Assembly: GCA_022563885.1 (NCBI GenBank)
Contig: JADFMM010000019.1
Location: 1-39,839 of the forward strand
DNA: 39,839 nucleotides
Direction: 5' to 3'
From: Planctomycetota bacterium
Lineage (GTDB): Bacteria > Planctomycetota > Phycisphaerae > Sedimentisphaerales > Anaerobacaceae
Each line of letters begins with the position of its first letter. Position 1 is the first letter of the stretch. The translations under genes were made by a program, and so were the position numbers. This document shows, piece after piece, positions 510 through 38,058 of this stretch. The notes under the pieces are model-generated. The model ran no database searches and was not told the DNA's origin. It saw only the letters and a list, made by a program, of their open reading frames with translations.

Positions 510-3173
510 CTAGGCATAGAGCGGTGCGGTTCGCTCGGTATCGATCTCAAAGGCCTTGATCGCCTCGGCGACCACGGCCTGTTTCACTTGACCCTCGTGA
601 CAGAGTTCACTCAGGGCGGCGACGACGATGTACTCCGCACTGACCTCAAAATGACGGCGCAGGTTGTCGCGGCCGTCAGAGCGTCCGAATCCGTCCGTGC
701 CCAGTGCGAGAAACCGGCCCGGCACATGGGCGCGAATCTGATCGGCGTAGGTCTTCATATAGTCCGTCGCCGCGACGACCGGTCCCGCCTCGCCCAATAC
801 CTGGGTGACATAGGCCAGCCGGGGGAGTTCTGTCGGGTGCAGCATGTTCCAGCGGCTGCATGTCTGTCCCTCTCGGGCCAGTTCATTAAAGGAGGTGACA
901 CTATAGACATGGCTGGAGATGCCGAAGCGTTCGGCCAGCAGTTGAGCCGCCCTGCGTACCTGGAGCAGGATGGTGCCCGAACCGAGCAGCTGCACACGAC
1001 TTGGACCTCCGGCCTGGACATGATCCAAGCGGTAGATCCCCCGTCGAATGCCCTCCTCGACGCCTTCCGGCAGGGGCGGCTGGGCATAGTTCTCATTCAT
1101 GCAGGTTATGTAATAGAAAACATCCTCCTGCTCCTGGAACATCCGCCGCAGGCCGTCCTGAATGATGACGGCCAGTTCATAGCCATAGGTGGGATCGTAG
1201 CTGATGCAGCTTGGGATGGTGTTGGCCAGGATGTGGCTATGACCATCGGCGTGTTGCAGTCCCTCCCCATTGAGCGTGGTCCGCCCCGCCGTACCGCCGA
1301 GCAGGAACCCCCGCGCCCGTTGATCTCCGGCCGCCCAGGCCAGATCTCCGACCCGCTGGAAGCCGAACATCGAATAGTAGATGTAGAAGGGGATCATGGG
1401 CGTGTCGTTGGAACTGTAGGAGGTGGCCGCCGCCAACCAGGAACTCATGGCGCCCAGTTCATTGATGCCCTCCTGGATCACCTGACCCTTTTGGTCTTCG
1501 CGGTAGTAGGCCACCTGATCCTTGTCCTGCGGGATGTATTTCTGTCCTTCGTGAGCGTAGATACCCACCTGACGAAAGAGCCCCTCCATGCCGAACGTGC
1601 GGGCCTCATCGGGAATGATGGGGACGATGTGTTTGCCGATCTTCTTGTCCTTGAGCAGAGAACTCAAAATGCGGCCCAAGACCATCGTCGTCGAGATCTC
1701 ACGATCACCGGAGCCTTGGGTCGCCGTCGCGAAGGATGTGAGGGGTGGAAGCTCGAGCGTTTCGGAAAACCGGTCTCGGCGCCAGGGCAGATACCCTCCC
1801 AATGCCTCCCGGTGACGTTTGAGGTACTGCACTTCCTCTGAATCCTCACCGGGATGGTAATAGGGGATCTCCTCCAACTCGTCGTCAGAGATGGGGATGT
1901 CGAAGCGGTCTCTGAAGTAGCGCACATCGTCCATGTCCATCTTTTTTACCTGGTGGGCGATGTTCTTGCCCTCGCCTGCCTTGCCCATGCCATAGCCCTT
2001 GACGGTCTTGGCCAGGATCACGGTGGGGCGTCCCCGGGTCTCGATTGCGTGTTTGAAGGCGGCATAGACCTTGAAGGGATCGTGTCCGCCCCGATTCAAA
2101 CGCCAGATGTCCTCGTCGGAGAGGTTTGCAACCATGGCCTTGGTTTCGGGATACTTGCCGAAGAAGTGCTCCCGCGTATAGGCCCCGCCCTTGGCCTTGC
2201 AGTTCTGGTATTCGCCGTCGACCGTCTCTTCCATCAATTCGAGCAGTTTGCCGGTCTTGTCCTGAAGAAAGAGGGGGTCCCAATAGCGACCCCAGATCAA
2301 CTTGACCACTTCCCAGCCGGCACCGCGGAAGGAGCCCTCCAGCTCCTGGATGATGCTGCCGTTACCCCGCACGGGACCATCGAGACGCTGCAGGTTGCAG
2401 TTGATCACAAAGACAAGATTGTCCAGGTTTTCCCGACTGGCCAGTCCGATGGCGCCCAGCGATTCTGGCTCATCCACTTCACCGTCGCCGATGAAGGCAT
2501 AGACCCTCTTCTGCGAACAGTCCTTGATGCCGCGGTCGGTAAGATATTTCAGAAAGCGGGCCTGGAAGATGGCAGATATCGGTCCCAGCCCCATGGACAC
2601 CGTGGGAAACTGCCAGTAGTGGGGCAGCAGACGCGGATGCGGGTAGGAGGGCAGGCCCTTGCCGTCCACTTCCTGGCGGAAACTGTCCAGTTGGTCCTCC
2701 GTCAGCCGTCCCTCCAGGAAGGACCGAGCATAGATGCCGGGAGAGCTGTGCCCCTGAAAGTAGACCAAATCGCCCCCGTCCGCGGAATCGGGGCCGCGAA
2801 AGAAGTGATTGAATGCGACATCATAGATCGTGGCCGCCGACGAGAAGCTGGCGATGTGCCCACCCAGTTCCAGGTCTTTCTTGGACGCCCGCAACACCAT
2901 GGCCACGGCATTCCAGCGGATGAGGGCGCGAATGCGCCGCTCCAGCGTCCTGTCCCCCGGCATCTGCGGTTCTTGCCAGGGAGCGATGGTGTTGGTATAG
3001 GCCGTTCTCCCCCGGTAGGGGAGATGACCGCCGCTGCGGCGCGTCTTGTCGATCAGCTTCTCGATGATGAAGTGGGCCCGATCCGTGCCATCCTGTTCGA
3101 TGACGGCATCGACCGATTCGACCCATTCGTGTGTTTCATCGGCGTCTATGTCTACGCCAAGGGTGTCAGACAT
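510..3173 (-). CDS. aceE: Pyruvate dehydrogenase E1 component, homodimeric type
   Basis: 887 residues, the same length as E. coli AceE. It decarboxylates pyruvate with thiamine diphosphate and reductively acetylates the lipoyl group of E2. The ThDP-binding motif starts at G229-D230-G231 and ends near N258 (VINCNLQRLDG). The order of conserved blocks matches the alpha2 family of E1 (N-terminal LIRWNAVAMVLRASK, SSPGIYARSF, GLPSYPHPRLLP, HSHILANTIPSC). The ATG at 3173 is preceded by AAGGA at about 7 bases. It is the first gene of an aceE-aceF operon; a lpd/E3 gene is not visible. The AGTAATCAG-type hairpin repeat lies 40-120 bases upstream of the start, in the promoter region. Confidence 0.97.
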   Translation of the reverse strand: MSDTLGVDIDADETHEWVESVDAVIEQDGTDRAHFIIEKLIDKTRRSGGHLPYRGRTAYTNTIAPWQEPQMPGDRTLERRIRALIRWNAVAMVLRASKKDLELGGHIASFSSAATIYDVAFNHFFRGPDSADGGDLVYFQGHSSPGIYARSFLEGRLTEDQLDSFRQEVDGKGLPSYPHPRLLPHYWQFPTVSMGLGPISAIFQARFLKYLTDRGIKDCSQKRVYAFIGDGEVDEPESLGAIGLASRENLDNLVFVINCNLQRLDGPVRGNGSIIQELEGSFRGAGWEVVKLIWGRYWDPLFLQDKTGKLLELMEETVDGEYQNCKAKGGAYTREHFFGKYPETKAMVANLSDEDIWRLNRGGHDPFKVYAAFKHAIETRGRPTVILAKTVKGYGMGKAGEGKNIAHQVKKMDMDDVRYFRDRFDIPISDDELEEIPYYHPGEDSEEVQYLKRHREALGGYLPWRRDRFSETLELPPLTSFATATQGSGDREISTTMVLGRILSSLLKDKKIGKHIVPIIPDEARTFGMEGLFRQVGIYAHEGQKYIPQDKDQVAYYREDQKGQVIQEGINELGAMSSWLAAATSYSSNDTPMIPFYIYYSMFGFQRVGDLAWAAGDQRARGFLLGGTAGRTTLNGEGLQHADGHSHILANTIPSCISYDPTYGYELAVIIQDGLRRMFQEQEDVFYYITCMNENYAQPPLPEGVEEGIRRGIYRLDHVQAGGPSRVQLLGSGTILLQVRRAAQLLAERFGISSHVYSVTSFNELAREGQTCSRWNMLHPTELPRLAYVTQVLGEAGPVVAATDYMKTYADQIRAHVPGRFLALGTDGFGRSDGRDNLRRHFEVSAEYIVVAALSELCHEGQVKQAVVAEAIKAFEIDTERTAPLYA

Positions 3174-4243: not shown

Positions 4244-7200
4244 TTACTTGATACCACTATTTTGACGCTCCATGATCATTGCGACTCCCATCCGCGTGCG
4301 GCACCGCCTTGCCAATTCTAGGCCAATGACACTGGCCCCACACAACGCCGTCATGGAAAACAGCACCCAGCCTAGCGGCCCGATGCTCTTGAGGGCATCT
4401 AGATCCGAGCCTTGAAGAAACGAGCTGGCCGAGCGCCTTTCCGTGTCGCGGAATATCTGAACGTCTTTGGCTGTGTAAAATCGCGAGGTTTCGGTCTGTT
4501 CGTCGCCATCAATGAAGGCGATGAACTCGAACTGAGCGGCATCGGTTTCATATTCCTCGTTGAATTTCTTGACCAGGTTGATGGCCGGCATGGTTTGCCG
4601 CCCCATGATCTCCTGCAGGGGAAAGTCGATCGTTCCGGAGTTTCCGCCGTAGGCGCGATACACGAGCTCGGTGCAAACGAGCATGTGGGTCGTTTCGAAG
4701 TCAAACTCAAAGTCGTAGGGTCGACCGGCGTAGCGGAATGCCGTTCCGATGGCGATGTTTTTCTCTTCTTCGCTGACCCTCGGCCGCAACACGGCGACCG
4801 AATCGGCGCCGCCGATCGAGTGCTCAAGCGACGAGAAGATGACGCCCTCGCTGACCGCCTCGATGATGACGTGCTCGTGGCCTTCATTATCCTTGGCGGC
4901 GAACGCCTCCCAATGTTTGCGTACGTGTTCATTCTCGTCGAGACCGCGTTGGCGCAAGTCCTCAGCCGTGCCGACATACACCGCACCGTGCGGCCAGTAG
5001 CCGGGCAAGAAGGCGTTTGAAAGATACCAGTTCCGCCGTTCCAGCAGGATGTCACCCGGCTGGAGCAGGGCGGCCAGCCTGGCAAGCTGCTTTTTATCGA
5101 TCAGAGGTTTTCCCATATGCGGTTGGCGGATCTTGAAATCTCCGATCCAGGTCGAGACGGCGGATTGCGTTGCGTAGCGAGCCTGATGAAGCAGTTTCCC
5201 CAGGTCCGCGACGGCAATTTCGATGATGCTCTCGAGGCCGCCGCCGCTCGCGCGGATCGTTTTTTCCGCCTCGGATATCGCCGTGTGAAACGGGTCGTAC
5301 TTCGCTGATTCGGATAGTCCGTGGGCCTTGAAGAGGTCTTGCACGTGATCCTGGTGGTAGTACTGCCGGGCCAGTTCGAACATTTCTCTGTTCCGGGTAC
5401 TGGCGAGATTACGCCGAATCATGTCGTAGAGCCCCGCCGGGATGCCCCAACTCGGCTCCGGTTCATTCAACTTGGCGACCGCCTCGGAGCTGTCGCCAAA
5501 TTGACGAACGAACTTCAGCGACGCCTGATAAAGCACGGCCGCCGCCGTGAAGTCCAAGAGAAACGTACGGTGGCGCAGCTCCTCATTTTCAATGTCAGCG
5601 TATCGTTGGTACCTCCAGACGATGCGCAGGAGAGCCTCGCGGTACGTGATGTATCGTCGCAGGTGTTCGCGGACGGCGTCGTCGTCCGCTTGACGGGCAA
5701 ACGACCGGAGTCCGTCGGCAAACTCGCCTTGAATCGTTTGCGCCTCGGTTTCGAGTTTGTCGAGGCCGCCGATGAGATGCACAATCGCCTTTTCGTCGGC
5801 GGTCAAGAAGGCTTCGATGTCGCGCTGAGGCATGTTCTTCAAGTCAAAGCCGTTACCACTGAGCGGATTGTCCAATAGTCTGTATTGCGCGACCCAAGCG
5901 ACCGCTGCGATGAGCAACACGACCAGGATTCTCACCGCCACGCGCGCCAAGCGTCGTTTGTTGAACGGCCGCGTTTTCGTTTCGGGTCGGGGGGAGACTT
6001 TCGCGTACTCCTCGGCCAACTCCTCGAGTCGATCGCGAAGCTCCGACTCCTGCCCGCGCAATCGTTTCAACGTGTCGCGGCGTACGGTCACACGCACCTG
6101 ATGCCAGAGCAGCTGCGCCGTCTGTCGGGCCCTGCGCCAGTAGTGGATGGCGATCACGCCGAAAAACGGCGCGGCGATCAGCCATGTCGCAAGGAACCAG
6201 GTGGAAAAATCATATCCGAACATCCACCACGCGACCACGGCGTACCAGATCAGATAGAGCGGCACGCCAACGAGCAGCCGGTTGGTCGAAATCGTGTTGC
6301 GCCCCGGCTGGTCCAGTTTCGCGGCCAGCCCGCGAACGATGACGAAGGGAACCAGGTGATGCAACGTGCCCACCAGCGCCGGGATGAACAAAAGAATCAG
6401 GCAAAGAACATTCCACAGCAGCTCCGCGCAAACCTTCATGCCGTGCAGGCGCAATACGGGCGAATCGATCCGCAGACCCGCCGATTGAACCTGATCACGA
6501 TACGCCTTGATATCGTCGGCGACCGATTCGGCACGCGCTCGATCGTTCGCCAGGAAATAATTCATGGCATCCGCGATGCGTTTCCGTCGCACGAGCGGTG
6601 GTACCGGCTCTTTTGCAGAGTCCTTCGGTGGCTCGACAAGGGTCTGGAGATCGTCGAGCCACGGCTCCCACTCAGGTTCGTCCAGATGCACGACGACATC
6701 CTTCAGGCGAGATTCGAGCTGCTGCGTGAGCGCTCGCCTGGCTTTGCGACCCTCACCCTCGTGTTGTGCCAGGCACTCGCGGACGTCGATGGGTTCTCCG
6801 ACTTGGATCCAGGCCGAAGAGCGAAACGCGTCCTTGCGTTCGTAGCTGATTCCGATCGGCACCACCCGTAGCCCCGTGGCCCCTTCTTCGACCGCTTGGA
6901 TGGCCATGCGGGCGGCGCCGGAGCGCACCATTTCGAGATGCGCTTGATCGGTTGATTTTCCTTCCGGAAAAATGCCCATCGCGTGGCCTTCGACCAGCAC
7001 TTTTGCGCCGAGGGCTAGGCTTTCGATGTTCCGTCGGACTTCGCGAGCATCGTCGCTGCCGCGAAAGGCCGGGATCATGCCCAGCGCAGTCATGGGCGGA
7101 CCGAGCAGGGGGTGGTCGAACAGGGGCGCCTTGGCCAGGAACCGAACCGGACGACGGGCGGCGATACCGATTAGAACGGGATCAAGCAGCGAATTCCCAT

Positions 7201-7342
7201 GATTCGCGCAGAGCAGGACGGGATCCGACTGGGAAATGCGATCCGCGTCGGTGATCTGGATATTGGGGTAGTATCGTCTGACCAACCAACGAACCAGGCT
7301 CCGCGTGAGTCCCCTCGCTTCCCCCGCTTGCTCGTTTGACAT
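4244..7342 (-). CDS. PlsC-type acyltransferase fused to membrane helices and a YiiX/LRAT-like permuted papain domain
   Basis: 1032 residues. Residues 1-250 form a glycerolipid acyltransferase domain: NHGNSLLDP puts the catalytic His at 48 and Asp at 54 (the H-x5-D spacing of the Gpt2-like branch), and FPEGKS at 125-130 is the acceptor-binding motif. Hydrophobic helices lie at about 305-340 and 350-400, with another at about 480-500. A charged helical region leads to a C-terminal permuted papain-fold domain (YaeF/YiiX, DUF830-like) with LLQPGDILL, H785 in WPHGAVYVG, E828 in IIEAVSEG and C890 in MLVCTELVY. A last membrane helix sits near 995-1015. Family knowledge: PlsC domains acylate lysophospholipids, and LRAT/YiiX-like folds act on acyl esters or amides. 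Inference: a membrane enzyme that both removes and adds acyl chains. It is the last gene of a four-gene operon, 13 bases after the PLD gene. Confidence 0.88.
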   Translation of the reverse strand: MSNEQAGEARGLTRSLVRWLVRRYYPNIQITDADRISQSDPVLLCANHGNSLLDPVLIGIAARRPVRFLAKAPLFDHPLLGPPMTALGMIPAFRGSDDAREVRRNIESLALGAKVLVEGHAMGIFPEGKSTDQAHLEMVRSGAARMAIQAVEEGATGLRVVPIGISYERKDAFRSSAWIQVGEPIDVRECLAQHEGEGRKARRALTQQLESRLKDVVVHLDEPEWEPWLDDLQTLVEPPKDSAKEPVPPLVRRKRIADAMNYFLANDRARAESVADDIKAYRDQVQSAGLRIDSPVLRLHGMKVCAELLWNVLCLILLFIPALVGTLHHLVPFVIVRGLAAKLDQPGRNTISTNRLLVGVPLYLIWYAVVAWWMFGYDFSTWFLATWLIAAPFFGVIAIHYWRRARQTAQLLWHQVRVTVRRDTLKRLRGQESELRDRLEELAEEYAKVSPRPETKTRPFNKRRLARVAVRILVVLLIAAVAWVAQYRLLDNPLSGNGFDLKNMPQRDIEAFLTADEKAIVHLIGGLDKLETEAQTIQGEFADGLRSFARQADDDAVREHLRRYITYREALLRIVWRYQRYADIENEELRHRTFLLDFTAAAVLYQASLKFVRQFGDSSEAVAKLNEPEPSWGIPAGLYDMIRRNLASTRNREMFELARQYYHQDHVQDLFKAHGLSESAKYDPFHTAISEAEKTIRASGGGLESIIEIAVADLGKLLHQARYATQSAVSTWIGDFKIRQPHMGKPLIDKKQLARLAALLQPGDILLERRNWYLSNAFLPGYWPHGAVYVGTAEDLRQRGLDENEHVRKHWEAFAAKDNEGHEHVIIEAVSEGVIFSSLEHSIGGADSVAVLRPRVSEEEKNIAIGTAFRYAGRPYDFEFDFETTHMLVCTELVYRAYGGNSGTIDFPLQEIMGRQTMPAINLVKKFNEEYETDAAQFEFIAFIDGDEQTETSRFYTAKDVQIFRDTERRSASSFLQGSDLDALKSIGPLGWVLFSMTALCGASVIGLELARRCRTRMGVAMIMERQNSGIK

Positions 7343-7355
7343 TACCTAGTCTCCT

Positions 7356-8573
7356 TCAATTGAACAACTGATGAAGTTGCTGCAGCGAGGCAATCACTTT
7401 ATTGTACTTGTCCAGCTCGGCCATCGATACCACTTTCTGACCCTGGCTCACCCGAAGGTCGACGGTCCTCTTGACTGCGGCGATAAACTCTGGATGATCT
7501 TTAACGACGACATCCATCTCGGCCGCACGTTGCATCGAAAAGACGGACGTATTCGCCGAACCGAGAATGACCAACTCGTCGTCGATCAACATGAGCTTCG
7601 AGTGGATCATCTTTTCGGAAAGATAAACCACGATGTCCGCCTGACGGAAGATCCGAAGAAGCGACCGGTAATTGATGTCGTTGCCAATATTGGCCACCTT
7701 GGAAAACAACATCGTGACCGGAACGCCGCGTTTGGACACCTCGATGATTTTTTGACTGACGTCCCGATCACCGATGTACGCCATTTCGATGTACAGCGAG
7801 CGTTTGGCGCCCGACATGATGTCGAGCATGGCCGGTTTGATCTCGAATCGCTTTTCCCCGTCGATCACATTGTTGAGCACGAAGTCGAGTGATCGCTCGG
7901 CGTCGAAGTCGACCGTGCCACAATGGCGGCGGTGGAATCGATCGATCGATTCCCGCCCGACAATCTCGACCATGTAGTCACGATATCCACGATGTCGGTC
8001 CTCGATGTTGATGCTACCGGTGATCATGACCCGTTGGTCGAAGATGTAATACTTGGTGTGCGTGTGATCGACCCATTCGATCGTGACGTTTTCGTGAGCC
8101 ATCACCTGCTGGCCGAGGCGGTCGTTGTAATCGTCCTCGACGTAGGACTCCGGAAACGTTAGCGCATTGAGCTTGTACATCAGGCGTTTGGAGGCCGAGA
8201 TCGGAATGTTGAAAAAGGATTTTCGGTTCATCTCGATCCGCTCGTACATGAACGCGCCGACGTCCTTGTGGATGTGGATCTTGACGCCGTGGTCGGCCGC
8301 CGCAAGAATCTCGCGACCGATCTGGTTCCCGATGTCATCATTTCGCCAGACGAACATGTGAATGACGATCGAGTCCGAGGCGTCTCTGATCCGCTGAAGC
8401 ACGCGGTGAAATGTCAAAGCCGCACCGTCCGTGTCGTGCACATCGGATAACAGTTCGATGCCTTGTTCGCTGGTTCCGTGTTCCATTTCCACTTCATCGA
8501 GATCCGAAATGATCTGCTGCGACGTGACTCGCTTCCTCACCCTGAGTCCCGATTCCTTCCAATGGGACACCAC
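7356..8573 (-). CDS. Phospholipase D / cardiolipin synthase-like protein
   Basis: 405 residues with two complete HKD motifs: H172-x-K174-x4-D179 (HTKYYIFDQRVMITGSIN) and H324-x-K326-x4-D331 (IHSKLMLIDDELVILGSAN). Two HKD motifs in one chain form the PLD active site used by cardiolipin synthases (ClsA/B/C), phosphatidylserine synthase and phospholipases. There are no obvious N-terminal membrane helices, so it resembles ClsB-type enzymes. The exact reaction cannot be told from sequence. The chosen start is a GTG with a weak ribosome site; Met30 is an alternative. It lies 30 bases after the amidohydrolase and 13 bases before the acyltransferase fusion, which suggests a shared role in phospholipid turnover. 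Confidence 0.9.
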   Translation of the reverse strand: MVSHWKESGLRVRKRVTSQQIISDLDEVEMEHGTSEQGIELLSDVHDTDGAALTFHRVLQRIRDASDSIVIHMFVWRNDDIGNQIGREILAAADHGVKIHIHKDVGAFMYERIEMNRKSFFNIPISASKRLMYKLNALTFPESYVEDDYNDRLGQQVMAHENVTIEWVDHTHTKYYIFDQRVMITGSINIEDRHRGYRDYMVEIVGRESIDRFHRRHCGTVDFDAERSLDFVLNNVIDGEKRFEIKPAMLDIMSGAKRSLYIEMAYIGDRDVSQKIIEVSKRGVPVTMLFSKVANIGNDINYRSLLRIFRQADIVVYLSEKMIHSKLMLIDDELVILGSANTSVFSMQRAAEMDVVVKDHPEFIAAVKRTVDLRVSQGQKVVSMAELDKYNKVIASLQQLHQLFN

Positions 8574-8603: not shown

Positions 8604-9602
8604 TCATCCATCACGCGGCGGGGATCGGAGTCCCATTAAATCCAGCAACTGACACGTATATGCCGAGCCGAAGCGAAACGATTGTTTTATCCGCAGGTCC
8701 ATGTCCAATCCGTTGTGGCGTTCCGGCGGAAACAGGCCGGTCCGCAACACAAACGGCAGGCGGGCAGGCGGGAACGGATAATCGCTGCCATGGAGAATGC
8801 GGGAGGTGATATCGGTTTCCGCCCGACTGAGGCGCCATAATGATGTCCAGCGAATCAGGCTAGCCATAATGGCCGTGTCGCCGTACAGGTTGTCGTGCCG
8901 ACGCATCATCTGCACAAAGGTGGGATAGTAGGTTTCCGGGTCAAACAGGGCGCAAGTGCCGCAATGCGCGGCGATGACAACCCCGCCGTGCTCGAGGGGT
9001 CGCGCCAAGCGTGTCGGGTCAGTGAACTTTTGCGATCGCACAGTACACGAATGTTCGTACCCGGTGTGAAACATCAGCACCACGCCGAGATCGGCGGCGC
9101 GACGATAGAAACCGTCAAAGCGGGACAGGGCAGGATCCACGCCCTGGATCGCCGTGTGGATCTTCACCAGTCGACATCCGGCCTCGCACACACGTTCTAG
9201 CTCGGCCAGTGCGTCGCGGCGAATCGGATTGATCGAGCAGCCGGGGAGAATCTTGGTCGACCTCTGAGCCAGATCTAGCACGTAGTCATTCGACACATAG
9301 AAATGTGTCGCCAAGTCGTCGCGCGTACCGTCATCGCGATACACGCTATCTTGCGCCAGTACCACCACATAGTCGAGCTCCGACTGATGTACGTGCCGTA
9401 ATAAGCGTGAGCGCAGTTTCTCGCTAATCGTCGCGCCCTCTTCCTTCTGAATGGCGGTCAGACGCAGCAGTAGTCTCGTCAACCATGCCCGCCGGGTCCG
9501 CGCCGAAAGAAACCCGTCGCGCGGGTTTTCACCCCAGCAGAACACGTGCGTGTGAGCGTCGACTAAGGGCTGTTCGCCGGGTGTTTGCGCTGCGGTGTTC
9601 AT
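8604..9602 (-). CDS. Metal-dependent amidohydrolase (Amidohydrolase_2 type)
   Basis: 332 residues forming a predicted TIM-barrel hydrolase. Visible metal ligands are H17-x-H19 (VDAHTHVF), a His in MFHTGYEHS, a His in IAAHCGTC and the Asp of HGSDYPFPP near residue 270. The substrate is unknown. No signal peptide is seen, so it should be cytoplasmic. It is tightly spaced inside the lipid operon: 22 bases after the MFS transporter gene and 30 before the PLD gene. This suggests it acts on a headgroup or other product of lipid turnover, but that is inferred from context only. Confidence 0.85.
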   Translation of the reverse strand: MNTAAQTPGEQPLVDAHTHVFCWGENPRDGFLSARTRRAWLTRLLLRLTAIQKEEGATISEKLRSRLLRHVHQSELDYVVVLAQDSVYRDDGTRDDLATHFYVSNDYVLDLAQRSTKILPGCSINPIRRDALAELERVCEAGCRLVKIHTAIQGVDPALSRFDGFYRRAADLGVVLMFHTGYEHSCTVRSQKFTDPTRLARPLEHGGVVIAAHCGTCALFDPETYYPTFVQMMRRHDNLYGDTAIMASLIRWTSLWRLSRAETDITSRILHGSDYPFPPARLPFVLRTGLFPPERHNGLDMDLRIKQSFRFGSAYTCQLLDLMGLRSPPRDG

Positions 9603-9624: not shown

Positions 9625-10896
9625 TCATTCCACATCCGCCAAGGTAAACCCCCGTGCCTTCAAGCGCCACGAGAAAAAGGCCACTCCCACCGCCATGAGC
9701 GCAGCACTGATTAGAAAGATCCTCTCTGGATTTGTACCGAAAAATTTACTAAATTCACTAATTATCCAGAATAGCAGCGAAGCCAGCAACAGGAAGGCAA
9801 ATGAAATGCAGTTGGCCGTACCCAGGAATCTCCCCCGCTCATCGCCCGGCGAGAGTCGCTGGAGCAAGGACTGCAGGGGGATGATGTAGAAGCCGGCAGA
9901 CACGCCCGCTCCGAAGATGAAAATGGCCACGTTTGGCATTGTTGGCGGAACAAACCCGAGCAGGGCGAAAAAGAACGTCAACCCCGCTGCGCCGATCGGA
10001 ATCAATCGCGGTCGTATGGTGTTCCCTGAGATCAATCCCGCTGCGACGCTTCCGAGACCGATCGCCAGGCCCATCACGCCCAGCAGCACACTCGCTTCCG
10101 TCCGCGTCACACTAAGCACATCGGAGTACTCCGGAATGATCAACAGCGCGAGACCTGCGAGAAAATAGAAATACCCCCATGCGAGCATTATCATCAGCAG
10201 GGGCTTAGCGGCTATTTCCCTGATCACGCTGAAATAGGTGGCGAACGGATTTGGGTCGTAGTTCAGCGTTCGATCGCCAGGCTCTAGCTGCTGTAGAAAT
10301 GTCACCGCAACAAGTCCCGCTATGGCGACGGCCACCATGACCACGCCAGGAAGCCAGAGAAGAGCAGGCATCGTACCACTGGGGTCTGGAAGCGGACTAT
10401 AGGCATCCGCAATAATCCCGGCCGAGTATGTCCCAAGGATGACCGCGATGTTGGTCATCATGTTGATGGTGCCGTTCGCCCGGCTGAGATCACGCGACCC
10501 CACCAGTTCTGGTATCATGCCGTATTTCGCCGGACCAAAGAATGCGCTTTGGCACGTCAATGCAATAAGAGCGCTCAAGGTGATCCACAAATTACCGATC
10601 CAGAAGCCGATCAGGGCAAGGATGGCGATGGGGATCTCGATTAGCTTGGCCAGCACGCTGACATAGCGTTTGCTGTTGCGATCGGCAAACTGACCCGCGT
10701 AGCCCGACAACACGATGAACGGCAGCGTGAAGCAGATGCCGACGATGCCCTGCCCGCCAGCACCAAGGTCACCCGCCCACGCCCCATTGATGACCATGAA
10801 AATCAGTACGCCCTTGAGGATGTTGTCGTTGGCAGCACCGAAGAACTGCGTGACGATCAGCGCGAGGAATCCGCGTTTCAGTAGTCTGTTTTTCAC
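9625..10896 (-). CDS. MFS transporter of the lysophospholipid transporter (LplT/Aas-associated) type
   Basis: 423 residues from the GTG at 10896, with about 12 hydrophobic helices. The N-terminus (FLALIVTQFFGAANDNILKG) and SAFFGPAKYGMIPELV are hallmarks of the LplT-like MFS branch, whose E. coli member flips lysophospholipids inward for reacylation by Aas. The GTG at 10896 has GGAGG five bases upstream. A second GTG at 10932 and an open frame up to 11094 add only low-complexity sequence. It is the first gene of the lipid operon, followed after 22 bases by the amidohydrolase. In E. coli LplT works with an acyltransferase; here the operon ends in a PlsC fusion, which supports the same logic. 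Confidence 0.85.
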   Translation of the reverse strand: MKNRLLKRGFLALIVTQFFGAANDNILKGVLIFMVINGAWAGDLGAGGQGIVGICFTLPFIVLSGYAGQFADRNSKRYVSVLAKLIEIPIAILALIGFWIGNLWITLSALIALTCQSAFFGPAKYGMIPELVGSRDLSRANGTINMMTNIAVILGTYSAGIIADAYSPLPDPSGTMPALLWLPGVVMVAVAIAGLVAVTFLQQLEPGDRTLNYDPNPFATYFSVIREIAAKPLLMIMLAWGYFYFLAGLALLIIPEYSDVLSVTRTEASVLLGVMGLAIGLGSVAAGLISGNTIRPRLIPIGAAGLTFFFALLGFVPPTMPNVAIFIFGAGVSAGFYIIPLQSLLQRLSPGDERGRFLGTANCISFAFLLLASLLFWIISEFSKFFGTNPERIFLISAALMAVGVAFFSWRLKARGFTLADVE

Positions 10897-11183
10897 GGTC
10901 CCCTCCGCGTTGGGTTGTTTTTGGTCCGTCACTGCGGCATCCCCTGCAGCTTGCTCAGAGTTCGAAGTCCATAAATCTCGGGCGACAGGCGGTCTCGTAG
11001 GCAATCCGCATCTGTCGCTGCTGCGCATACAGCCGAAGACAGGCCGTTGTGCACCCGTCATCGCTGATAACGGATGGGCATTTGGATTCTTCAACCATCA
11101 GAACGATTATACCCCTCTGAAGCAAGGCAGATCAAGGGGCTGTTGCATGTGGGGTGTACCCGGTCCATTTGAGCCCAGATACC

Positions 11184-11370
11184 GGCCTGGTTCAAACCAG
11201 GGTAACAATGTGTCTGGATCGAAATCGGGATCGAAATCGGAACGAGAAAAGCCTTTGGTGCTACCATTGTCCTGATGGATGAAAGACGATTTCGATAGCG
11301 ATTTCGATTTCGATCCTGAAACGGCGGTTTACTCAGTGTTACCCGGAACCGTCGATTTTTGAACCAGGCC
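11184..11370. repeat. Miniature inverted-repeat element, family R187, full copy
   Basis: 187 bp with perfect 13-bp terminal inverted repeats (GGCCTGGTTCAAA and TTTGAACCAGGCC). It is flanked on both sides by the 8-bp direct repeat CAGATACC (11176-11183 and 11371-11378), as expected for a target-site duplication. The interior holds GATTTCGAT-type direct and inverted motifs and no coding capacity. A second full copy is at 30827-31002 and a partial one at 22676-22755. Confidence 0.88.
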
Positions 11371-11567: not shown

Positions 11568-11807
11568 GGGACCGGCAAGAAAACTGCGGCTTCCGTGATA
11601 CAATCCTGTCTGCGATAGCAGCATTATTAAAGAACCTCGAAATAACTTGGACTTTTGAATGCCCAATTGCACCCCATCTTTGATCGCTTCTCAATCGCGA
11701 AATCCCCGACGTAGAACGGCTACGCCTATGGTTTCGCTCAATCGGGTGCGACCAAATATGGGGCACACTTGGACCCCAAATTGTCCAAGTTATTTATTGC
11801 CGATCCC
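11568..11807 (+). repeat. Miniature inverted-repeat element, family R180, long variant
   Basis: 240 bp, opposite in orientation to the 180-bp copies. Ends are GGGACCGGCAAGAAA and TTATTGCCGATCCC. Relative to the 180-bp copies it carries about 57 extra bases near the left end (about 11584-11638), which are also present in the copy at 35934-36214. The core reads through a conserved frame starting MPNCTPSLIASQ, as in the other copies, but the conservation is at the DNA level and the frame has no independent start signal. Confidence 0.85.
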
Positions 11808-12055
11808 TAAGAGATTGCGGCCGCGCATCAGTGAAAATCAGTGCCGATGCGTGTTCTTGTTTCCAACTCTCGAGCACTCCCTGCTCGGCTGGGCTGCTTT
11901 CTTCCTTGAATCGTTATCCCCCCCGGTTGTACAATCACCTGTGTAGGTTGTAATCAGATTTCTCCTATCCAATGTTATGCTCGCTGGTTTTCTGATAGGG
12001 GTGTCGTGCGCGACCTCCGCTGATGACGGCGTTGTCGAAAGGAGCGGACACGATC

Positions 12056-13534
12056 ATGCAGCCGGAAGAAGTGGTCCTTCAGACTGACCTCAAGCGCCTG
12101 GCCCCGCTGACCGAGGCGTTGCATGAAATGGCCGGAGACATGGTCGCGCTGCAACAGACCTTCAAGAGCAGGGAAAGGGGCTTTTACACCAGCGACGAAC
12201 ATGACGCGATCGAAAACCTGCTGTTCCGCTATGTGATGTGCCGCGATACGATGTGGGAGGTGGTCGACTTCCACCGCGACTACGAAACGCGCTTCACGAG
12301 CGAGGAACATCAAACCAAATCCTTCGCCATCGGCTTCGTCGCGGCGCTCAGCCTGTGTGAGTACGGGAGTTTGTTCGTCCACGCCTTTCTCGATTCGCCC
12401 CAGACAATCGCCAAACTCAACGAGGCCTACTACCGGCTGGAGATCCCGGAGGACACCTACGACCGGGTTTTCATGAGCCTGACGAATCCCGACAACATCC
12501 GCGACCTGCGCGCCGCGATGCAGATTTATTCCCAGGAGATGGCCAAGGCGAATACGCCGCTGCACCGGCTGGCCCAAACGGACCCCGCCTACGGAAAGCT
12601 GTTGAACGGCCTTCAAGAGAAGTGCGTCGAAGTCGATGCGCGCATCGAGGACATCCTGGAAAAACGCTCGTTGCTGAGTTCCGCGCTGCGCAACCAGCTG
12701 CGCCATTCCAAAATCAACCAGTTGGCAAAAGTGGCGCTTAAAAAGACCAACAGCGCCATGGAGGCGATCCGGGCGCTGACCTATACGCGTATGAGCCGGA
12801 TCAAGGAGCCGACCGCCGGGCCGCTTGATTTCACCGCCGCACAGTGCGTGCAATTAAAAAAAATGCTGCGGCCTGGCGACGTCATCCTCACTTATTCGGC
12901 CGGCTACATGTGCAACCTGTTTCTTCCCGGCACCTTCAAGCACGGCATCACCTACGTGGGCTCCCCCGAGGAGCGAAAGCAGGCCGGTCTGGAACAATGG
13001 GTGGAGGACAAGCAGCCCGCCCAGCGCGAAAAAATGCAACGGGACCTGGAGACCGCCAGCCTTCCCGACGGCTCGGAGGCCGACCTGATCGAGGCCGTGG
13101 CCGAAGGGGTGGTTTTCAATTCGCTACAGTACATTTTGAAGGCCAAGGCCAACCGGCTGGCGGTGTGGCGTCCGCGGCTGACGCACGCCCAGCGCATCAA
13201 TAGCCTGGGGACGGTTTTTTCTTTCCTCGGCTGCGGCTACGATTTTAAATTCGACTTCAACGACGCCTCCGAGCAATGCTGCACTGAGCTCATCTACCGC
13301 AGTCTGAACAAAGTCGGGCCCATCGAACTACCGCTCACCAGGCGCCTGGGACGCCAGACGCTGAGCGCGGACGATTTTTGCCAAAACGCCCTGAGACAGG
13401 GCACCGCCGTCTTTGAATTGGTGGCGCTGGCGGTGGCCGATGAATCTCCCTCTACAAACCGAAACCTCGCCGCAATTTACACCGGCCAAAAGGCCCTGGA
13501 CAAAATGCGGGACCTCGTGCGGGAAACAAGATAG
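12056..13534 (+). CDS. YiiX/YaeF-like permuted papain-fold protein, paralogue of the fusion's C-terminal half
   Basis: 492 residues. The ATG at 12056 is preceded by GAAAGGAG at about 11 bases; an ATG at 12023 lacks a ribosome site. The N-terminal about 250 residues are helical (for example LLNGLQEKCVEVDARIEDIL) and parallel the helical linker of the 1032-aa fusion, sharing blocks such as AKLNE. The C-terminal domain repeats all key blocks: MLRPGDVILTY, His in FKHGITYVGS, Glu in DLIEAVAEGVVFNSL, Cys in EQCCTELIYRS, then LPLTRRLGRQT. Family: permuted NlpC/P60-like cysteine hydrolases/acyltransferases (C92). No acyltransferase domain and no clear signal peptide. It lies divergently from the lipid operon, across a repeat-rich gap. 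Confidence 0.82.
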   Translation: MQPEEVVLQTDLKRLAPLTEALHEMAGDMVALQQTFKSRERGFYTSDEHDAIENLLFRYVMCRDTMWEVVDFHRDYETRFTSEEHQTKSFAIGFVAALSLCEYGSLFVHAFLDSPQTIAKLNEAYYRLEIPEDTYDRVFMSLTNPDNIRDLRAAMQIYSQEMAKANTPLHRLAQTDPAYGKLLNGLQEKCVEVDARIEDILEKRSLLSSALRNQLRHSKINQLAKVALKKTNSAMEAIRALTYTRMSRIKEPTAGPLDFTAAQCVQLKKMLRPGDVILTYSAGYMCNLFLPGTFKHGITYVGSPEERKQAGLEQWVEDKQPAQREKMQRDLETASLPDGSEADLIEAVAEGVVFNSLQYILKAKANRLAVWRPRLTHAQRINSLGTVFSFLGCGYDFKFDFNDASEQCCTELIYRSLNKVGPIELPLTRRLGRQTLSADDFCQNALRQGTAVFELVALAVADESPSTNRNLAAIYTGQKALDKMRDLVRETR

Positions 13535-21033: not shown

Positions 21034-21059
21034 ACTGTCTCCGGTTTAATCGGGGATAA

Positions 21060-21239
21060 GGGATCGGCAAGAAATAACTTGGACAATTTGGGGTCCAAGT
21101 GTGCCCCATATTGGGTCGCGCCCGATTGAGCGAAACCACAGGCGTAGCTGTCCTACGTAGCGGATTTCGCGATTGAGAAGCGATCAAAGATGGGGTGCAA
21201 TTGGGCATTCAAAAGTCCAAGTTATTTCTTGCCGGTCCC
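21060..21239 (-). repeat. Miniature inverted-repeat element, family R180, 180-bp copy
   Basis: Exactly 180 bp, with near-perfect terminal inverted repeats of about 25 bp (GGGATCGGCAAGAAATAA at the left, one mismatch to the right end). It is flanked by TAA on both sides (21057-21059 and 21240-21242). Internal hairpins include CTTGGAC/GTCCAAG near the left end and CGTAG/CTACG at the centre. The right end forms the last codons of the alpha/beta hydrolase ORF. Confidence 0.92.
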
Positions 21240-22188: not shown

Positions 22189-22387
22189 GCAGTACTCTTT
22201 TCACGCTAGTGATAATTCTCAACGGAGGTGATATCTACGCCAACACACTTATGTGAGCCATACACGCTATGCAAAAGCGGGTCCATACCTTTCAAAAAGT
22301 TCTCTAGTATTCAAGTATACAACCAAAGGGTCTACAGTACTAACAGGGAGTGAAGAATGATAGGCTGCTATCGTTTTGGGGCCCTTA

Positions 22388-22567
22388 GGGATCGGCAAGA
22401 AATAAGTTGGACAATTTGGGGTCCAAGTGTGCCCGATATTTGGTCGCGCCCGATTGAGCGAAACCACAGGCGTAGCCGTCCTACGTCGCGGATTTTGCAA
22501 TTGAGAAGCGATCAAAGATGGGGTGCAATTGGGCATTCAAAAGTCCAAGTTATTTCTTGCCGTTCCC
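22388..22567 (-). repeat. Miniature inverted-repeat element, family R180, 180-bp copy
   Basis: Exactly 180 bp and flanked by TTA on both sides (22385-22387 and 22568-22570). Ends are GGGATCGGCAAGAAATAA and the complementary CTTGCCGTTCCC. It is nearly identical to the copies at 21060-21239 and 37879-38058. It is in an intergenic position between the alpha/beta hydrolase and the VapBC pair. Confidence 0.92.
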
Positions 22568-37698: not shown

Positions 37699-37878
37699 TG
37701 TTGCTTGCCTCCGATTATCGCGACAGAATTCATCTCAAATCGATGTCCTGGGAGTTTACATGACTCATTGAAGTCAAACAAGTTCGAATTATTGAGTAGG
37801 ACAATGACGCGATACGGCTGGAAGTACCGATCGATGAGGCGGCGCAGCGACCCCGCTAAAAGGCAGGATGAACACATA

Positions 37879-38058
37879 GGGATCGGCAAGAAATAAGTTG
37901 GACAATTTGGGGTCCAAGTGTGCCCCATGTTTGGTCGCGCCCGATTGAGCGAAACCACAGGCGTAGCAGTTCTACGTCGCGGATTTCGCGATTGAGAAGC
38001 GATCAAAGATGGGGTGCAATTGGGCATTCAAAAGTCCAAGTTATTTCTTGCCGTTCCC
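37879..38058 (-). repeat. Miniature inverted-repeat element, family R180, 180-bp copy
   Basis: Exactly 180 bp, flanked by ATA on both sides (37876-37878 and 38059-38061). Near-identical to the 21060 and 22388 copies. It lies 66 bases after the stop of the neighbouring propeller gene. Confidence 0.92.

Follow-up and report, generated by a model that had tools for sequence, protein, structure and literature searches.

The window, a stretch of 39,839 nucleotides of planctomycete DNA, encodes the same two domains in the same order twice, once as a stand-alone protein and once as part of a fusion with an acyltransferase. The preliminary description of this locus suggested duplication and splitting, or two enzymes with a shared substrate. 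The locus raises the question of how the two proteins are related, and what the stand-alone one may do. Our main reading, to which we assign a probability of about 0.65, is that the stand-alone protein belongs to an old, sparsely but broadly distributed subfamily of helical-domain C92 proteins, is exported, performs thiol-based acyl chemistry on a lipid or lipidated substrate, and is a distant paralogue of the fusion.

Domain layout and catalytic residues

The stand-alone protein and its parts are located as follows:

12056-13534, + strand: stand-alone helical and permuted papain-like (C92) protein, 492 residues (open reading frame, Pfam, BLASTP, AlphaFold2)
12056-12802, + strand: all-helical N-terminal domain, about residues 1-249 (model helices at 3-247; aligns alone with the fusion)
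12836-13438, + strand: circularly permuted papain-like C92 domain, about residues 261-461 (PF05708 and fold matches)
12941-12943, + strand: His296, predicted catalytic histidine (invariant in 69 of 69; role by analogy with BcPPNE and YiiX, PMC3142127)
13091-13093, + strand: Glu346, predicted third catalytic residue (invariant in 69 of 69; EAV stretch common to YiiX)
13238-13240, + strand: Tyr395, NlpC/P60 signature tyrosine (invariant in 69 of 69; aligned to YiiX PYDF)
13280-13282, + strand: Cys409, predicted nucleophile (invariant in 69 of 69; aligned to YiiX CSEVV)

The open reading frame encodes 492 residues, or 503 when read from an in-frame ATG at 12023. Searched against Pfam, it matched Peptidase_C92 (PF05708) over residues 271-443 with 38.8 bits against a cut-off of 27, the sole match at E 1; no Pfam family was matched by the helical N-terminal domain. 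In the AlphaFold2 model (mean pLDDT 93.6, pTM 0.88), one half is entirely helical and the other papain-like. We assign the protein to the Peptidase_C92 enzymes (YaeF/YiiX-like, circularly permuted papain), with a helical domain of about 250 residues in front.

Conservation was assessed in an alignment of 69 proteins carrying both domains (67 of 84 prepared references, the stand-alone protein and the fusion), in which 14 columns were invariant, H296, E346, Y395 and C409 among them. His296 and Tyr395 sit in the two search patterns by which relatives were found, so the invariance of this pair is partly a product of the search; Glu346 and Cys409 lie outside the patterns and provide the sole unbiased invariance among the four. 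The residues follow the permuted order His - acidic - Tyr - Cys, with the cysteine towards the C-terminus, and the same set in the same order is described for permuted papain-like NlpC/P60 enzymes (PMC3142127).

A sequence search of the PDB with the single protein returned no match at E 10. A profile built from the alignment detected E. coli YiiX (2if6; E 2.4e-7), and the Glu, Tyr and Cys residues fell in matching columns. Structural comparison of the model with VIA-align gave as its two top rows YiiX (2if6; Z 14.1, 2.4 Å, 151 residues, over 269-463) and BcPPNE (3kw0; Z 12.3, 2.8 Å, 152 residues, over 262-460), with unrelated helical rows at Z 10.6 and below. Foldseek against the PDB found no match at E 0.001, with YiiX and BcPPNE absent from its top rows. 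Syntaxin, 14-3-3 and designed helical repeats aligned with the helical half at Z values of up to 10.6; because such values are common among helical bundles, no kinship is claimed for this half. The NCBIfam equivalog model for YiiX (NF007458) scored 18.9 bits against a cut-off of 216, so by this cut-off the protein is not a YiiX orthologue.

Relationship to the acyltransferase fusion

The fusion, the genes next to it and the repeats between them and the stand-alone gene are arranged as follows:

4244-7342, - strand: fusion of 1032 residues; PlsC-type acyltransferase, transmembrane helices, helical domain and C92 domain (Pfam, model)
7356-8573, - strand: PLD-like protein of the lipid cassette (PF13091, 106 bits)
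8604-9602, - strand: amidohydrolase of the lipid cassette (PF04909, 60.4 bits)
9625-11094, - strand: LplT-like MFS transporter of the lipid cassette (PF07690, 81.6 bits)
11183-11368, no strand: second dispersed repeat (92% copy on another contig)
11639-11810, no strand: imperfect dispersed palindromic repeat of about 171 bp in the gap between the stand-alone and MFS genes (genome copies)

BLASTP aligned residues 5-469 of the stand-alone protein with residues 510-954 of the fusion, 140 of 475 columns being identical (29%; 185 bits, E 2e-54). Each half also aligns separately: helical residues 1-255 at 27.8% over 176 residues (60.8 bits, E 1e-15; 200 shuffles of this part gave a mean of 12.7 and a maximum of 21.9 bits), and the papain-like part at 35.5% over 217 residues (134 bits). 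The paralogy proposed in the preliminary description therefore extends through the helical as well as the papain-like half and is not limited to the latter. The motif blocks listed there are likewise present in both proteins, save that LGRQT reads MGRQT in the fusion, and the acyltransferase is missing from the stand-alone protein as claimed, since Pfam detects it in the fusion only (Acyltransferase 70.3 bits, beside Peptidase_C92 at 69.9 bits). The two proteins are the sole matches in their own genome at E 0.001.

The intervening DNA is filled with repeats, as had been noted: the palindrome has at least 38 further copies in the genome at 88-96% identity (40 of 465 candidates scored), and lies in the window also at 21059-21228, 22384-22556 and 37877-38047. 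Four planctomycete fusions match that of the window at 72-75% identity, while the rest of a class of 298 genomes shows no counterpart, and mis-binning of the contig was therefore considered. The tetranucleotide distance to the genome mean was 0.11-0.14 for four 10-kb pieces of the window, 0.11-0.15 (leave-one-out) for 12 of the genome's own contigs (the stretches above 6.5 kb out of 20 retrieved), and 0.18-0.35 for 20 contigs of other genomes, with L024, L025, L027 and L028 at 0.21-0.26. This own-genome composition, together with a high-copy repeat found on many other contigs, indicates that the contig is native, and mis-binning was rejected.

The idea that the C-terminal half of the fusion was duplicated locally and the acyltransferase then lost has in its favour the identical domain order, the identity over 475 columns and the distance of about 1 kb from the operon. 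Similarity between the two genes at the DNA level amounts to one stretch of 37 nt (E 0.004) and fragments that look like chance, which argues against such an event, as does the position of both proteins among their relatives. The latter were taken from a scan of GTDB genomes as the best 80 of at least 500 confirmed relatives, a sample biased to near ones, with taxon labels as given in the submitters' MAG titles. Among the matches listed, the best relatives from other phyla (L007-L021 without the broken L020) are 33-43% identical to the stand-alone protein and thus closer to it than the fusion, which counts against duplication and splitting.

A tree of 85 rows, computed without fragments and repeat loci (L003, L006, L018, L020, L037, L087, L088, L091, L096, L097) and the short L092, places the stand-alone protein in a 16-row group (SH-aLRT 100) with 15 other stand-alone proteins, on a fairly long end branch (0.52). 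Two rows of the group are unlabelled, and the others carry eight phylum labels: Lentisphaerota, Fidelibacterota (Neomarinimicrobiota), Thermodesulfobacteriota, Pseudomonadota, Myxococcota, Kiritimatiellota, Auribacterota and Verrucomicrobiota. The fusion groups with the planctomycete fusions L024-L028, labelled Pirellulales, Pirellulaceae, Planctomycetaceae and Planctomycetota, and in the case of L027 Candidatus Nealsonbacteria, a label hard to credit for a 9.1-Mb bin. A more careful tree of 41 of the 85 rows recovered the stand-alone group with 12 members at 100/100 and fusion groups at 99/95 and 100/100. Constraining this tree to unite the two proteins of the window made it worse by 269 log-likelihood units (AU p 3.9e-5; the pair was set by the original observation, and the test was done after the quick 85-row tree was known). 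The phylogeny thus finds the closest kin of either protein elsewhere, in separate and well-supported groups, and local duplication is rejected under the tree model used.

Both kinds together were seen in none of 28 other genomes with a stand-alone protein (18) or a fusion (10, including that of L031 with its internal stop), a count limited by MAG incompleteness. Where fusion genomes had extra matches, these grouped with other stand-alone branches, and the extra matches checked in the stand-alone genomes revealed no acyltransferase; four matches (G343:C486, G346:C1, G337:C82, G341:C115) were left out of this classification. Taken together, we consider a local duplication extremely improbable: judged from their sequences, the stand-alone protein and the fusion look like distant paralogues that lie near each other, and not like a recent copy.

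The wider family holds further architectures. In six relatives (L056, L057, L060, L066, L072, L085), the acyltransferase is replaced by between three and seven hydrophobic helices, so that the helical-C92 unit seems to have been joined to several membrane modules. From the genus or order of the window's genome, L004, L005, L089 and L090 form a branch of proteins of 580-623 residues with N-terminal transmembrane helices followed by the helical and C92 domains, about 23-32% identical to both proteins of the window. Two incomplete relatives nearest the clade of the stand-alone protein come from one Planctomicrobium-labelled bin, where L020 (136-951) is broken and split over two frames and L201 is a fragment at a contig end. 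A Prosthecobacter-labelled homologue of the fusion (L031, 5077-7923; 43% over 979 residues) has one internal stop in its acyltransferase half.

The N-terminus and export

Two features upstream of the stand-alone gene bear on its start:

11953-12012, + strand: lipoprotein-signal-like peptide IRFLLSNVMLAGFLIGVSCA, in a different frame from the stand-alone gene; possible true N-terminus (lipobox pattern)
12038-12044, + strand: AAAGGAG, resembling a ribosome-binding site, 11 nt before the ATG at 12056 (read from the sequence)

As assembled, the stand-alone protein has no signal, its best N-terminal hydropathy being 0.97. Defined as the best 11 residues within the first 60 or so, an N-terminal hydrophobic stretch is present in all 15 other members of its clade and in L037 and L003, both outside the tree; its mean hydropathy in these relatives is 1.87-3.29, and Lys or Arg precedes it in all of them except L017. 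Six relatives (L011, L013, L015, L017, L019, L021) pass the strict PROSITE lipobox pattern, L014 and L016 have an evident lipobox missed by the strict pattern, and the remaining clade members have N-termini like ordinary signals or an anchor. Among 48 stand-alone rows of less than 600 residues outside the clade (a set without repeated loci and loci cut at the left end), 7 reach a hydropathy of 1.87, a threshold chosen after the values were known, and 41 have no comparable stretch. By hydropathy and lipobox pattern, the branch to which the stand-alone protein belongs looks exported, with lipoprotein- or Sec-type signals.

The upstream peptide passes the lipobox pattern, and for the two other frames over 40 codons the chance expectation of such a peptide is about 0.0014, taken at a hydropathy of 1.78, which is its own value. 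With signals throughout the clade and this peptide just upstream, it is likely that a frame break, whether it arose in the assembly or exists in the cell, has cut the signal off the open reading frame; from this we infer export of the 492-residue protein itself.

The protein could also be a cytoplasmic C92 enzyme, with the ATG at 12056 as its true start and the lipobox peptide upstream by chance. No signal is present as assembled, AAAGGAG is suitably placed, and the sole ATG in the lipobox frame, at 11977, is a poor start that leaves ten codons before the cysteine; the 41 of 48 outside-clade rows described above would likewise agree with a cytoplasmic location. The hydrophobic N-termini of the whole clade and the low chance expectation of the peptide oppose it, and we regard a cytoplasmic enzyme as possible but unlikely, and an exported one as the preferred reading.

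A related observation comes from the same-genus genome G001, where what is left of the relative covers the N-terminal third, in a frame that is broken (L003 1498-1962 (-), contig C123), beside an open reading frame that is presumably quinolinate-synthase-like. As this relative is broken, the gene at 12056-13534 could be decaying too.

The lipid cassette and the proposed chemistry

Over its length, the fusion is 72-75% identical to L024, L025, L027 and L028 and 56% identical to L026, and its cassette recurs, whole or in part, on the first four of these contigs. Among all five, a PLD homologue (69-73%) lies near the fusion in three, an amidohydrolase homologue (70-83%) is found on the contig in three, and an MFS homologue (70-71%) adjoins the fusion in two. 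All four genes stand together in L027; in L024 the MFS and amidohydrolase genes adjoin the fusion, in L028 the PLD gene adjoins it with the amidohydrolase about 2 kb away, and L025 has the PLD homologue. On the 5.2-kb contig of L026, the fusion was found without the other cassette genes. Of 298 genomes in the class to which the window belongs, its own is the sole one with a match whose open frame is as long as the fusion. An RpoB tree (20 rows; open reading frames chosen by BLAST; without G001, L016, L075 and L076; 5 of 29 genomes gave none) places this genome in the Planctomycetota, where it joins two Phycisphaerales-type genomes in a group at 99; its RpoB is 59% identical to the two Pirellulales-type RpoBs. 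As the cassette proteins (69-83%) are more alike than RpoB and the class otherwise seems to be without them, the comparison points to transfer: the fusion and its cassette were probably exchanged with the Pirellulales side, between planctomycete classes, and the direction of the exchange would be a guess. Elsewhere in the window, the protein at 510-3173 (-), presumably pyruvate dehydrogenase E1, has a match of only 55% identity in a same-genus genome, against 83% for the RpoB of that genome; in a second genome of the genus it has no match, and two same-family ones have weak partial matches.

The stand-alone type has no comparable setting. None of the MFS, amidohydrolase and PLD genes was found at 18 stand-alone loci of 3.7-15 kb, no gene cluster extends to more than 4 of the 27 loci compared, and neighbours common to the type were rejected as immediate neighbours repeat in pairs only (L008/L037, L017/L019, L022/L023). 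With no cassette gene at these loci and no other genome seen with both kinds, the neighbourhood lends the suggestion of a shared substrate no support beyond this genome.

The topology of the fusion was examined in nine sequences. The 20 residues before the last helix preceding the helical-C92 part contain more Lys and Arg than the 20 after it in eight, with equal numbers in the ninth; a hydrophobic C-terminal helix is present in six of the nine, with more Lys and Arg after it in all six. This bias suggests an outer location for the C92 part of the fusion and an inner one for the acyltransferase. In the fusion model (mean pLDDT 80.2, pTM 0.51), four long helices occupy the membrane region before C92, and simply counting them as four crossings would place the C92 part inside, provided that the first long helix crosses once.

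Our best guess for the stand-alone protein, made by analogy, is an envelope thiol acyl-hydrolase or acyltransferase acting on a lipid substrate. No enzymatic activity was found on record for any protein with this helical domain, and the guess follows from kinship: in YiiX a fatty acid was found inside a hydrophobic pocket, and action on acyl-amide bonds was proposed (PMC3142127); Tox-Act1 is described as a phospholipase that cleaves PG and PE (PMC12994826); and LnsA is needed for N-acylation of lipoproteins, an acyl-thioester intermediate being described for the superfamily (PMC7387801). The signal, probably lost from the assembled frame by the frame break, would lead the protein to the envelope. 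There the nucleophile Cys409, with His296 and Glu346 to activate it and Tyr395 to assist, would attack an acyl bond in a substrate that is a lipid or carries one. An acyl-thioester would form on Cys409, and the acyl chain would then pass to water or to another acceptor. On this reading, the stand-alone protein and the fusion are distant paralogues that met in one genome, after a probable exchange of the fusion and its cassette with the Pirellulales side.

The name of the Pfam family suggests an envelope amidase or peptidase acting on amide bonds of peptides or lipopeptides instead, and the catalytic set is indeed the same as in NlpC/P60 peptidases. The solved permuted members are described as having a hydrophobic S1 pocket (PMC3142127), and Tox-Act1, an assayed permuted member, as cleaving phospholipids (PMC12994826), so that we consider a peptidase rather unlikely. 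A lipoprotein N-acyltransferase resembling LnsA and acting in place of Lnt would be in line with the description of LnsA, an NlpC/P60 protein that has permuted relatives and is predicted to carry an export signal (PMC7387801). The genome has an Lnt above the cut-off (205.4 against 132.9 bits), as do 27 of 31 genomes examined, which makes such a replacement very unlikely.

The preferred reading, an envelope acyl-hydrolase or acyltransferase, may extend to the cassette. LplT and Aas are described as a lysophospholipid-remodelling system of Gram-negative bacteria (PMC11416262), and the best NCBIfam match of the MFS protein is PRK08633, an acyl-[ACP]--phospholipid O-acyltransferase model (242 bits, below the cut-off of 1221), over the model's first 406 positions. 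A cycle of deacylation, flipping and reacylation is thus a reasonable proposal for the cassette and a weaker one for the stand-alone protein. The C92 enzymes would remove an acyl chain from phospholipid outside, or hand the chain to a protein; the LplT-like transporter would import the lysophospholipid and the PlsC domain reacylate it, the loop being partly contained within one polypeptide. That a free-standing C92 lipoprotein of the envelope and the fusion, with C92 outside and acyltransferase inside, together serve one such phospholipid cycle is a tentative proposal that we think improbable as a whole.

With these results, the copy-and-split account of the locus is replaced by a tested one, in which the two genes represent two old branches of one enzyme family. 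A C92 branch with a helical domain that has no Pfam family is found, apparently exported, under eight phylum labels, and a lipid cassette seems to have moved between planctomycete classes. Among the openly licensed papers listed by the literature searches, no title or displayed abstract describes a helical-C92 protein or an acyltransferase-C92 fusion, which is weak evidence of absence. The roles of bacterial YaeF/YiiX-type enzymes are called poorly understood (PMC7387801); should C92 domains deacylate envelope lipids, the window would allow a direct test for these enzymes.

Comparison with known systems

The closest structural counterparts are E. coli YiiX (2if6) and B. cereus BcPPNE (3kw0), which have the permuted papain-like fold in common with the stand-alone protein and are 18-21% identical to it over the shared fold; their chains of 182-197 residues lack the helical domain. 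The PlsC-C92 fusion at 4244-7342 and its orthologues L024-L028 share both domains and all four catalytic residues, but differ in having an acyltransferase, transmembrane helices and a shared cassette, and in belonging to another clade. Staphylococcus aureus LnsA resembles the stand-alone protein by description, as an NlpC/P60 protein with an export signal and permuted relatives, but has 189 residues and works with LnsB (PMC7387801); bacteria with LnsA are described as having no Lnt homologue (PMC8689077), whereas the genome studied here has Lnt. Tox-Act1 and TseH, also by description, resemble it in a permuted NlpC/P60 core, which in their case acts on phospholipids (PMC12994826), but they are secreted effectors.
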